From NCBI GenBank assembly GCA_030612725.1, contig JAUWNJ010000018.1, positions 1 through 59,999 on the forward strand: a stretch of DNA of 59,999 nucleotides, given 5' to 3'. Made by a program: the position numbers and the translations under genes. This document shows positions 5,027 through 22,907 of the stretch, piece by piece (positions within the stretch are counted from its first letter, which is position 1; each line of letters starts with the position of its first letter). Below the pieces are notes generated by a model. The model did no database searches and was not told the origin of the DNA. It worked only from the letters and a program-made list of their open reading frames with translations. The DNA comes from Planctomycetales bacterium. Lineage in GTDB: Bacteria > Planctomycetota > Phycisphaerae > SM23-33.

Positions 5027-5914
5027 ATGAAGAACATGATGGAACGATTAAATGCCGGTGAAATCCTTTTCTGCGACGGGGCTATGGGAACTTTTCTCCA
5101 GGACAAGGGACTCAAGCCGGGCGAGTGCCCGGAACTGTGGTGCATCGAACGAGCAGACGACATTAGGGACATCCATCGCCAATACCGCCAAGCCGGCAGC
5201 GATATCGTCGAATGTAACTCCTTCGGCGGCTCACGATATAAATTGAAGCATTACGGTCTGGACGATCGCGCCGCTGAAATCAACCAGGCCGCCGCCGCCG
5301 TCGCGCGTGAAGTGGCCGGTGAAGACCAGTACGTCCTCGGAAGCGCCGGACCTACCGGCGAATTCATGGCCCCGCTCGGACTGGAAACGGAAGAGAACTT
5401 CTACGACGCCTTCCGCGAACAGATAACCGCCTTCGAAGCCGGCGGAGCCGACGCGGTGATTATCGAAACAATGACAGCCTTGGAGGAAGCAGCCGTAGCC
5501 GTCAAGGCAGCCAAGGAAAACACCAAACTCGTCGTGATGGCGTCTTTCACGTTCGACCCACAGGTACACGGCGGATACGCCTCGATGATGGGCGTTACGC
5601 CCGAAAAATTCGCCGAAACTATTATCGAAGCCGGCGCGGACATCATCGGCGCTAACTGCGGCACGGGGCCTGACCACATGATCAATGTCGTCAAACTCCT
5701 GCGAGCAGCAGCGCCGGATATGCCCATCATCGCCATGCCGAACGCCGGTATGCCCGTTATCGAGAACGGGCAAACCGTCTTCAAGGAGACGCCCGAAGCA
5801 ATGGCCTCCAAAGCGCCCCTGCTGGTCGAAGCCAGCGCTAATATCGTCGGAGGCTGCTGTGGGACAGGACCAGAACACATCGCCGCTATGAAAAAGGCAA
5901 TACTGGGCAACTGA
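5027..5914 (+). CDS. Homocysteine S-methyltransferase family protein
   Basis: A 295-aa protein matching the homocysteine-binding TIM barrel found as the N-terminal module of cobalamin-dependent methionine synthase and in betaine- and S-methylmethionine-homocysteine methyltransferases. It starts with FCDGAMGTFLQDKG; the zinc ligands are visible as GANCGTGP (about 205-212) and VGGCCGTGPEHI (about 271-282). No folate, B12 or reactivation domain is attached, so it is either a stand-alone enzyme or one part of a split MetH. ATG 5027 follows aaagga. The methyl donor cannot be inferred. Confidence 0.88.
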   Translation: MKNMMERLNAGEILFCDGAMGTFLQDKGLKPGECPELWCIERADDIRDIHRQYRQAGSDIVECNSFGGSRYKLKHYGLDDRAAEINQAAAAVAREVAGEDQYVLGSAGPTGEFMAPLGLETEENFYDAFREQITAFEAGGADAVIIETMTALEEAAVAVKAAKENTKLVVMASFTFDPQVHGGYASMMGVTPEKFAETIIEAGADIIGANCGTGPDHMINVVKLLRAAAPDMPIIAMPNAGMPVIENGQTVFKETPEAMASKAPLLVEASANIVGGCCGTGPEHIAAMKKAILGN

Positions 5915-5920
5915 CCTGTT

Positions 5921-5981
5921 ACGTAGCACGGGCGTCTCGCCCGTGAATTAAAGAGGCATGGCCGAGACGGTCATGCTACGT
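5921..5981. terminator. Imperfect inverted repeat after the methyltransferase gene
   Basis: Arms of about 25 bp (5921-5945 and 5957-5981) begin seven bases after the stop codon. The left arm carries its own small dyad, cacgggcgtctcgcccgtg. A T-rich stretch follows closely (about 5989-6000) and leads straight into the leuA promoter. It is a plausible 3' end for the preceding transcript. Confidence 0.55.
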
Positions 5982-5998
5982 CGGCACATTTTTTCTCT

Positions 5999-6026
5999 TT
6001 GACCAAACGGTAAAGACCGATATAAT
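5999..6026 (+). promoter_or_regulatory. Sigma-70-type promoter of the leu leader
   Basis: TTGACC (5999-6004) and TATAAT (6021-6026) with a 16-nt spacer. The predicted start, about 6033, lies just ahead of a gaagga ribosome site and the leucine leader peptide, which fits the geometry of an attenuator. Confidence 0.8.
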
Positions 6027-6047
6027 ATGTAATTGAAGGATTTTCGA

Positions 6048-6125
6048 ATGATGGTCCGTCAACGCGACAACTTGAGCCTCCTGTTATTGCTGGGGCTATT
6101 GCTACGCCCCCTCGGGGCAGGCTGA
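6048..6125 (+). CDS. leuL: Leucine-rich leader peptide of leuA
   Basis: A 25-codon ORF with ATG at 6048 (a second ATG follows at 6051), a gaagga ribosome site 8-13 nt upstream and TGA at 6123-6125. Ten codons are leucine, including five in a row (6078-6092) and then three in a row (6096-6104). All leucine codon types except CTT occur. This is the ribosome-stalling sensor of a leucine attenuation switch: its end overlaps the competing hairpins described in the next entry. It is too short for routine gene callers. Name given by function, not by homology. Confidence 0.85.
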   Translation: MMVRQRDNLSLLLLLGLLLRPLGAG

Positions 6126-6190
6126 CGGATCGCGGGAACATCAGATTTTGACGCCCCGTGGTCTAATCCAAGGATCGCGGGGCTTTTTTA
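6106..6190 (+). promoter_or_regulatory. Transcription attenuator of leuA (hairpins plus terminator)
   Basis: Four segments fit the classical scheme. Segment 1 gcccc (6106-6110) pairs with segment 2 ggggc (6114-6118). Segment 2, read as cggggc (6113-6118), also pairs with segment 3 gccccg (6153-6158). Segment 3 pairs with segment 4 cggggc (6178-6183), which is followed by six Ts (6184-6189). A ribosome stalled on the leucine codons (up to 6104) would mask segment 1 and favour 2:3, allowing read-through. A ribosome reaching the stop codon would mask segment 2 and allow the 3:4 terminator. leuA begins 51 nt later. Confidence 0.82.
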
Positions 6191-6241
6191 TTGGGCAAAA
6201 TGAACTGTAACTGACGAAACTATGGAACAAAGGAAGATATT

Positions 6242-7783
6242 ATGGCTGAACCGAGAAAAATCCTGATCTTCGATACGACGCTGCGGGACGGCGAGCAATC
6301 GCCCGGATGCAGTATGAACCTTGCCGAAAAACTCGAAGTGGCGAAGATGCTGGAGGCATTGCGGGTCGATATTATCGAAGCCGGTTTCCCTATAGCCTCA
6401 CCGGGCGATTTCGATGCCGTTCAGGCTGTGGCTGAAACTATCGAAAACTGCACAATCGCCGCCCTCGCCCGCGCTGTCGATAAGGACATCGAGCGAGCCG
6501 CCGAAGCCGTCGCCAAATCCGAACGCCGGCGAATCCACGTCTTCTGCGCAACAAGCGAAATCCATCGCAAACACAAACTCAAACGCGCCAAGGACGAAAT
6601 TATCAAAATGAGCGTCGAAAGCGTCCGCCAAGCCACCGAATATACCGACGACGTGGAGTTCTCACCCGAAGACGCATCACGCACCGAGCCGGAATTCCTC
6701 GCCGAAGTGGTCGAAGCCGTTATCGAAGCAGGCGCAACCACCGTAAATATCCCAGACACCGTCGGTTACGCTATGCCAGCGCAGTTCGGCGACCTGATCC
6801 GATACCTGTACAAGCATGTCTCGAACATCGACGATACCGTCATCAGCGTCCATTGCCACAATGACCTCGGTCTGGCCGTCGCCAACTCGCTCGCGGCAAT
6901 TCGCGCGGGGGCAGGACAGATCGAGTGCACAATCAACGGCTTGGGCGAACGCGCCGGAAACGCCGCGCTCGAAGAAGTCGTCATGGCAATGAAGACCCGC
7001 CGCGACTTCCTCGACGCCGACACCAATATCGAAACGGCGAAAATATATCCCGCCTCACGCATGGTCTCGTCCATCACCGGCGTCAACGTCCAGCGGAACA
7101 AGGCCATCGTCGGAGAAAACGCCTTCGCGCACGAAGCCGGCGTTCACCAGCACGGAATGCTGGCCGACCGACACACTTACGAAATTATGAAGCCTGAAGA
7201 CATCGGCGTACCCGCCAGCAGACTGGTATTCGGAAAACACTCAGGCCGGCACGGATTCGAGGAAAAGATTCGGTCGCTCGGTTTTACCCTCACGGACGAA
7301 CAACTTAACGAGGCCTACGAGAAATTCATCGTCCTTGCCGACAAGAAAAAGAGCGTCTATGACGCCGACATCGAAGCGATTATCGACCAGCAGGTAGGCT
7401 TGGCGACGGAAGTTTGGCGACTGGAGGGCCTGCAAACCACAGCCGGGACGAACGCCATACCGACCGCGACGGTAATGCTGTCGAAAGAGGGCGAAACTAT
7501 CACCGACGCAGCCACCGGTGACGGACCCGTCGATGCGATTTACGAAGCAATTCGACGGATTACCGGCATGAAATTAACGCTGACGGATTATTCGCTGCGG
7601 GCATTGACCGGCGGTAAGGACGCACAGGGCGAGGTAACTATCGAGGTCGATAGCGACGGGCGAAAGTTCCGAGCACGGGGTTTGAGCACAGACATTGTAG
7701 AGGCCTCGGCCAAGGCCTACCTCGCCGCAGTCAACCGAGTCCTCACAGCCACCAACGGCGGTAAAAAACCACCGCAACCGTAA
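6242..7783 (+). CDS. leuA: 2-isopropylmalate synthase
   Basis: A 513-aa enzyme for the first committed step of leucine synthesis (acetyl-CoA + 2-oxoisovalerate). The N-terminal HMGL-like TIM barrel begins with FDTTLRDGEQSPG (about 10-22); metal and catalytic motifs include SVHCHNDLGLAVANS (about 203-217) and NAFAHEAGVHQHG. A C-terminal allosteric LeuA dimer domain (about 365-505) should give leucine feedback inhibition. The ribosome site is aaaggaag. With the leucine attenuator upstream, both the transcript and the enzyme appear to be end-product controlled. No leuBCD follow. Confidence 0.95.
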   Translation: MAEPRKILIFDTTLRDGEQSPGCSMNLAEKLEVAKMLEALRVDIIEAGFPIASPGDFDAVQAVAETIENCTIAALARAVDKDIERAAEAVAKSERRRIHVFCATSEIHRKHKLKRAKDEIIKMSVESVRQATEYTDDVEFSPEDASRTEPEFLAEVVEAVIEAGATTVNIPDTVGYAMPAQFGDLIRYLYKHVSNIDDTVISVHCHNDLGLAVANSLAAIRAGAGQIECTINGLGERAGNAALEEVVMAMKTRRDFLDADTNIETAKIYPASRMVSSITGVNVQRNKAIVGENAFAHEAGVHQHGMLADRHTYEIMKPEDIGVPASRLVFGKHSGRHGFEEKIRSLGFTLTDEQLNEAYEKFIVLADKKKSVYDADIEAIIDQQVGLATEVWRLEGLQTTAGTNAIPTATVMLSKEGETITDAATGDGPVDAIYEAIRRITGMKLTLTDYSLRALTGGKDAQGEVTIEVDSDGRKFRARGLSTDIVEASAKAYLAAVNRVLTATNGGKKPPQP

Positions 7784-7793
7784 TAAGGTAACC

Positions 7794-7873
7794 GGGTGCC
7801 GTGGCCGCTGTGTTTGCGGCCACGTTAACGTTTGCGCATCCGCGTGGTCGCAAACGCCGCGACCACGGCACCC
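7794..7873. repeat. Dispersed stem-loop element after leuA
   Basis: Arms of 25 bp (7794-7818 and 7849-7873; three mismatches) begin ten bases past the leuA stop codon, between convergent genes. Its sequence is a shorter version of the inner part of the element at 11-221, sharing gaccacg/ggccacgttaacg and cgcgtggtcgcaaac. Probably it ends the leuA transcript. Bases 7874-8015 hold no gene. Confidence 0.8.
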
Positions 7874-8015
7874 CCTGTTCAGCCCCATCGGGGTGTTCGT
7901 ATATCTGCCTCGGCACATTGGCTGTTCACGACCGCCCCGCCGGTCGGAACGAAGCAAAGACTCGCCGTGGCGAGGGCTTGAAAAATCCCAACCACTATAC
8001 CTCATATGCTTGCTA

Positions 8016-13848: not shown

Positions 13849-13922
13849 TATCCCCGACAGGATTCGAACCTGTAACCTTCGGCTTCGGAAGCCGACGCTC
13901 TGTCCAATTGGGCTACGGGGAC
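13849..13922 (-). tRNA. tRNA-Arg (anticodon CCG)
   Basis: A 74-nt cloverleaf on the minus strand. The acceptor starts GTCCCCG and pairs with CGGGGAT (one G-U at the end); D arm GCCCAATTGGACAGAGC; anticodon stem TCGGC/GCCGA around the loop TTCCGAA, giving CCG; T arm contains GGTTCGAATCC. No CCA is encoded. It reads CGG codons. Confidence 0.92.

Positions 13923-22835: not shown

Positions 22836-22907
<72 letters not shown>

Follow-up and report, generated by a model that had tools for sequence, protein, structure and literature searches.

A predicted ribosome-mediated leucine attenuator upstream of leuA in a planctomycete genome and its relatives across the class

How leucine synthesis might be controlled at leuA in a planctomycete is the question raised by a short, leucine-rich reading frame in the window, by which we mean the whole 59,999-nucleotide stretch of DNA analysed here. 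The structural gene, leuA (6242–7783, on the forward strand, as are all features of the leader), encodes a short-type 2-isopropylmalate synthase according to NCBIfam, scoring 783.6 bits against NF002086 (cut-off 532) and 735.4 bits against TIGR00973 (cut-off 598.7). The preliminary description of this DNA had proposed a leucine attenuator in front of the gene. Our comparison with other genomes strongly supports this proposal, which also came through the check suggested there, as both the conservation of a leucine-rich ORF and covariation in relatives were found. On the strength of sequence and comparison, we consider it very likely that the element is a ribosome-mediated transcription attenuator, which would sense leucyl-tRNA and control leuA.

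Leader ORF and competing helices in the window

The leader is headed by a sigma-70-type promoter, TTGACC-16-TATAAT at 5999–6026, with 11/12 matches. This promoter, claimed in the preliminary description, holds up well: its elements are conserved in the related leaders L002 and L003, and two promoter-like matches occur in the interval 5500–6500 as compared with 0.6 in shuffles. Transcription of the leader would start at ~6033. Direct reading of the sequence further reveals a Shine–Dalgarno-like GAAGGA at 6035–6040 and the leader peptide ORF M(M)VRQRDNLSLLLLLGLLLRPLGAG with its stop codon at 6048–6125, the start of which was assigned by comparison. Counted from the first ATG, the ORF has 25 codons, ten of them for leucine (1+5+3+1), which lie between 6072 and 6113 at 6072, 6078–6092, 6096–6104 and 6111. 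The ORF and its leucine content are therefore as first described, while its length is probably 24 rather than 25 codons, with the second ATG at 6051 as the likelier start because relatives retain the second ATG alone. The leucine codons TTG, TTA and CTA make up 6/10 in the leader, compared with 30/178 in six adjacent genes. As in an attenuator, a run of codons for the amino acid of the pathway is thus found within a short leader ORF, the translation of which is itself predicted. An NCBIfam search with the leader peptide returned no family.

Several other features surround the leader. A stand-alone homocysteine S-methyltransferase-like gene (5027–5914), which scores under all curated cut-offs, lies 5' of leuA. 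Immediately 5' of the leader promoter, at 5923–5980, the palindromic dispersed repeat GTAGCACGGGCGTCTCGCCCGTG is present together with an imperfect mate; it has 42 copies in the genome at ≤2 mismatches (reversed control, 0) and looks like a REP-type element. A further GC-rich palindromic stretch, gtggtcgcaaacgccgcgaccacgg, occurs 3' of leuA at 7795–7880, and similar words are found in L004.

Four segments of the leader can form three helices. Segment 1, UGGUCCGUCA (6052–6061), overlaps the leader start codon and pairs with 6123–6132 in segment 2, UGACGGAUCGCGGG (6123–6136), which contains the stop codon together with a repeat of the 3' arm of the terminator (6172–6183). Segment 3 (6153–6164) is the terminator 5' arm, and its portion 6155–6164 pairs with segment 2 to form the putative antiterminator. 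Segment 4 (6172–6183) and the U tract (6184–6189) complete the intrinsic terminator. Helix 1:2 (6052–6061 with 6123–6132) and helix 2:3 (6127–6136 with 6155–6164) each comprise ten pairs, with energies of –14.6 and –15.7 kcal/mol, respectively. Helix 3:4 joins 6153–6164 to 6172–6183 through 12 pairs followed by T6 and reaches –22.4 kcal/mol, so that the terminator noted in the preliminary description is confirmed and is better than it had been drawn there. An intrinsic terminator is accordingly located between leader and structural gene; helix 2:3 and the terminator are mutually exclusive, as are helices 1:2 and 2:3. The region 6030–6195 folds better than 199/200 shuffles.

Constrained folding was used to follow the helices in different states of translation. 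Helix 3:4 forms when a ribosome occupies the stop codon; without translation, helices 1:2 and 3:4 form together. Helix 2:3 is obtained when a ribosome sits on the Leu codons, all RNA 5' of it is unavailable and segment 4 is unmade. When the ribosome footprint alone is masked in the full-length fold, helix 3:4 still wins. Because helix 3:4 is always the more stable once segment 4 exists, the read-through state must be kinetic, which is the usual situation for attenuators. The geometry of masking fits a ribosome at the stop codon for segment 2 and a ribosome at the first Leu codon for segment 1, but not one at the later Leu codons: upon a stall at the second or a later Leu codon, segment 1 is mostly behind the ribosome and helix 1:2 can re-form in the fold.

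These folds are consistent with a mechanism in which, when leucine is plentiful, the ribosome would reach the stop codon UGA (6123) and cover segment 2, allowing helix 3:4 to form and transcription to stop near 6184–6189. When leucine is short, the ribosome would stall on the Leu codons, most effectively on the first (6072), with its footprint over segment 1; the isolated codon at 6072 would be the stalling site that best covers this segment. Segment 2 could then pair with segment 3 while segment 4 had yet to be transcribed, and RNA polymerase would continue into leuA. On an untranslated leader, helices 1:2 and 3:4 would form and transcription would stop.

Covariation and the genes behind the element

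Of the 19 leaders in our alignment of near relatives, six precede short-type leuA and 13 precede the long type. Among the loci from the family and the order, L004 (truncated) and the leaders L005, L007, L008, L011, L012, L013 and L208 were left out, the reasons for exclusion being excessive divergence, too great a distance from the gene or an interruption. Across the 19 leaders, helix 1:2 is paired in 99.5% of cells, with 2 pairs changed on both sides, and helix 3:4 in 96.1% of cells, with 6 pairs changed on both sides. Their joint covariation was matched by 0/500 shuffles, and sliding the partners of the two helices lowers pairing to 27–46%. Helix 2:3 is paired in 91.1% of cells and has 4 pairs with changes on both sides; 1/500 shuffles attained its covariation score and 40/500 its number of both-side pairs, and its further pair types show no excess over shuffles (375/500 reach it). 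In L216, segments 1 and 3 both compensate for a single change in segment 2, and L213, L214 and L218 carry joint changes in segments 2, 3 and 4. The terminators of these last three leaders are without a clean T run. Compensatory changes in helices 1:2, 2:3 and 3:4 are as predicted by a switch with mutually exclusive helices.

The same alignment bears on where the switch segments lie. In the preliminary description, segments 1 and 2 had been placed inside the ORF, at 6106–6110 and 6113–6118. The pairings quoted there all exist as letters, and the complementarity corresponds to RNA duplex energies of –9.2 and –11.6 kcal/mol. Both of these segments, however, fall in a 15-nt in-frame insertion (6106–6120) peculiar to the window's genome, which is absent from 18/18 other aligned leaders and is missing even in the closest relative, L002, whose LeuA is 98% identical. 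The earlier segment map is for this reason wrong as to segments 1 and 2, and the roles given to 6106–6110 and 6113–6118 were not confirmed. The helices described above are longer and stronger alternatives and covary, and we give almost no credence to a switch driven by the two segments within the insertion. The attenuator built on segments 1 to 4 as mapped here is the reading that we carry forward.

A covariance model built on the 19-leader alignment yielded 35 strong matches (at least 49 bits), of which 19 are the model's own training rows. They occur in 28/35 family genomes, and a strong match is missing in the other 7/35. All 34 strong matches with a readable neighbour precede leucine genes, namely short-type leuA in 12 cases, long-type leuA in 15 and leuS in 7; one further match stands at a contig end. 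The distance to the gene varies: in G017, a methyltransferase-like gene lies between the element and short-type leuA, and in G021, the element is about 1 kb from short-type leuA. By the model, the element of L007 (G017) lies about 1.2 kb and that of L008 (G010) 370 nt upstream of leuA. The three of the 15 long-type proteins that were scanned score 682–705 bits against NF002991 (cut-off 455), and TIGR00970 stays under its cut-off. The identity of leuS in the seven copies is given by the position of a TIGR00396 match directly downstream.

These seven leuS copies of the window's leader element (L258–L264) occur in 7 family genomes. They appear sporadic, because the detector found no leader before leuS in any of 20 other family genomes checked, the window's genome included. 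In the window's genome, the strong element occurs once, at leuA, and no such leader was found at its leuC and ilvB. In a class-wide search, 79/198 genomes match the model at an E-value of 0.01; apart from those in the family and in a single member of the order (G035), all matches are below 32 bits and were taken as chance and left uncounted. Five weaker or contig-end matches were examined and gave no new case. Within the 35-genome family, the same leader is followed in some genomes by one type of 2-isopropylmalate synthase and in others by a second, distantly related type. The element may either have been retained while the controlled enzyme was replaced or have moved between enzymes.

Leucine leaders across the class

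LeuA of the window type (E up to 1e-120) is present in 154/298 genomes of the class. Its clade groups with LeuA of Planctomycetota and other PVC bacteria, which supports a planctomycete origin of the window, as does the type-2 leader (below) that genomes of the class have in common with a record named Phycisphaerae; the class is probably Phycisphaerae. PF07596, taken as a planctomycete marker, gave two weak matches, one of them barely over the cut-off. We took 121 upstream regions, 120 of which were long enough (L004, with 71 nt, was dropped), and called a leader type 1 if an ORF with a leucine run (4 Leu in 8 codons) was followed by a terminator at 15–62 nt. Such an arrangement before leuA was found in 68/120 class genomes, compared with 0–5 for each of the other 19 amino acids, and 2/600 shuffles passed the call. 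Relaxing the run to 3 Leu in 8 codons gave 79/120 versus 14/600 shuffles. Among named records, a leucine-run ORF with a terminator precedes leuA in 8/77 usable cases, seven of them in Planctomycetota, Verrucomicrobia or Lentisphaerae; this count is weak, because R gave 5.

The competing pairings also extend beyond the near relatives. In 54 representatives of the 68 type-1 leaders, the energy of helix 2:3 is –19.1 kcal/mol as compared with –13.9 kcal/mol with permuted partners, and that of helix 1:2 is –21.2 as compared with –17.5 kcal/mol; 0/5000 permutations were as good in either case. Two control regions in the same test were null (1314/5000 and 2507/5000). Helix 1:2 is less universal than helix 2:3, as 40/68 leaders have a single 1:2 helix with an energy of –8 kcal/mol or lower. 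In these 40, segment 1 lies 0–70 nt (median 21) from the first Leu codon of the cluster. The stop codon precedes the terminator by a median of 30 nt, and in many genera segment 2 includes the stop codon TAG, for example where TAGGG pairs with CCCTG.

Taken with the promoter map, these counts bear on another explanation, that the hairpin only ends a small RNA or a transcript from upstream and that leuA is expressed constitutively from a different promoter. The terminator would indeed stop transcripts reading through from the gene at 5027–5914 as well. Nevertheless, the leader promoter lies downstream of that gene and ahead of the terminator, a search for a sigma-70-like promoter at 6190–6242 gave none, and neither the class-wide specificity of the ORF for leucine nor the covariation with the terminator arm would be explained. 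We therefore regard this explanation as very improbable and retain that of an attenuator acting on leuA.

A second kind of leader, type 2, was found in 27 of the 120 class regions, all without a type-1 call. Its leader ORF ends in LLLR(R/P/L/Q) and stop or similar, and a TGCGCC-loop-GGCGC hairpin is placed at the stop codon, a combination passed by 6/2400 shuffles. In a further three leaders, L029, L188 and L190, a hairpin with different letters occupies the same stop-codon position. The LeuA proteins behind type-2 leaders belong to another clade than that of the window (full sequences: L029, L030 and L098), and among 80 named records L098 alone, a Phycisphaerae, is of type 2. Most type-2 leaders are without a T run. 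Some carry Ile as well as Leu codons, and Leu codons are scarcely enriched in L170 and L180. In the 60 nt 3' of the hairpin, C exceeds G in 22/23 representatives, and a promoter-like CATAAT precedes leuA in 22/27 type-2 regions versus 5/68 type-1 regions. Terminator-less leucine leaders with the stop-codon hairpin and a second CATAAT are represented by L029, L030 and L168–L201. Six tests for a competing or long-range pairing partner in type 2 were all null, pairing between the type-2 Leu codons and the Shine–Dalgarno region of leuA was not above permutation (707/3000), and an Rfam search on five type-2 loci gave nothing relevant. As a guess, control by type-2 leaders might be Rho-dependent.

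That a sister lineage of LeuA within the class has such terminator-less, Leu-rich leaders lends some weight to the idea that the window's leader, too, acts on leuA translation or via Rho (as in proposals for Actinobacterial leuA or of a tna-like kind) and not through intrinsic termination. The window, by comparison, has the 12-pair terminator with T6, the 5' arm of which covaries with segment 2, and we hold this alternative to be highly unlikely; attenuation by intrinsic termination is the reading that we prefer for the window. For the class, a tentative picture, plausible rather than probable, is that of two leucine leaders. Type 1 would be a classical attenuator passed among three leucine genes and surviving enzyme replacement, and type 2 would sense leucine through a leader whose expression platform is of a new kind and might depend on Rho or be tied to the use of promoters.

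Relation to known systems and biological meaning

Attenuation by amino acids is textbook knowledge in enterobacteria, where the leu leader (leuL; Leu_leader in Rfam) combines a Leu-rich leader peptide, competing hairpins and an intrinsic terminator with leuA downstream. The window's element shares all of these parts. It differs from leuL in that segments 1 and 2 overlap the start and stop codons of the leader, respectively, and in that elements of its type also sit on long-type leuA and leuS. At the gathering threshold, Rfam matched the window in two tRNAs alone, and Leu_leader and other leader families were not reached; at E up to 5, five chance-level matches appeared, none of them to a leader family. 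The two tRNA genes of the window lie at 13849–13922 (reverse strand) and 22836–22907 (forward strand).

Among other described systems, candidate attenuators with Leu codons, antiterminator and terminator are given for Streptomyces leuS in passages of one report (PMC1262725), a layout before leuS like that of the seven copies found here. In those passages, the attenuator belongs to leuS, whereas leuA of that phylum carries the LEU element, which has a pseudoknot, pairing between Leu codons and the Shine–Dalgarno sequence of leuA, and no terminator (PMC1262725). A leader ORF with a Leu run before leuA is common to the LEU element, as outlined there (PMC1262725), and to the window; the window differs in having a terminator, and the type-2 leaders give no support for the Shine–Dalgarno pairing. 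The ilv-leu operon of Staphylococcus aureus, compared by its description in part of a further report, has a Leu-rich leader peptide and an attenuator on branched-chain synthesis, as here, and differs in phylum and operon from the window's leuA (PMC5794164). For Planctomycetes, leader genes near structural genes have been reported, with no leuA attenuation in the passages concerned (PMC4833913). The device is itself of a known kind; in the literature searched and in Rfam, we found no report of a leucine attenuator of this kind for planctomycetes, a lineage that a 2010 comparative survey may cover (PubMed 20198868).

In a class of planctomycetes, attenuation seems to serve as a standard means of controlling leucine synthesis. 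The compensatory changes shared three ways among the segments allow the mechanism to be tested directly with mutants, and the type-2 leaders raise the question of how a leucine leader can function when it has no intrinsic terminator. One homologous attenuator that stands before two isopropylmalate synthases of distant relationship, as well as before leucyl-tRNA synthetase in some genomes, amounts to a natural experiment, and its sharing across enzymes suggests that the switch is under selection in its own right, whichever protein it controls.
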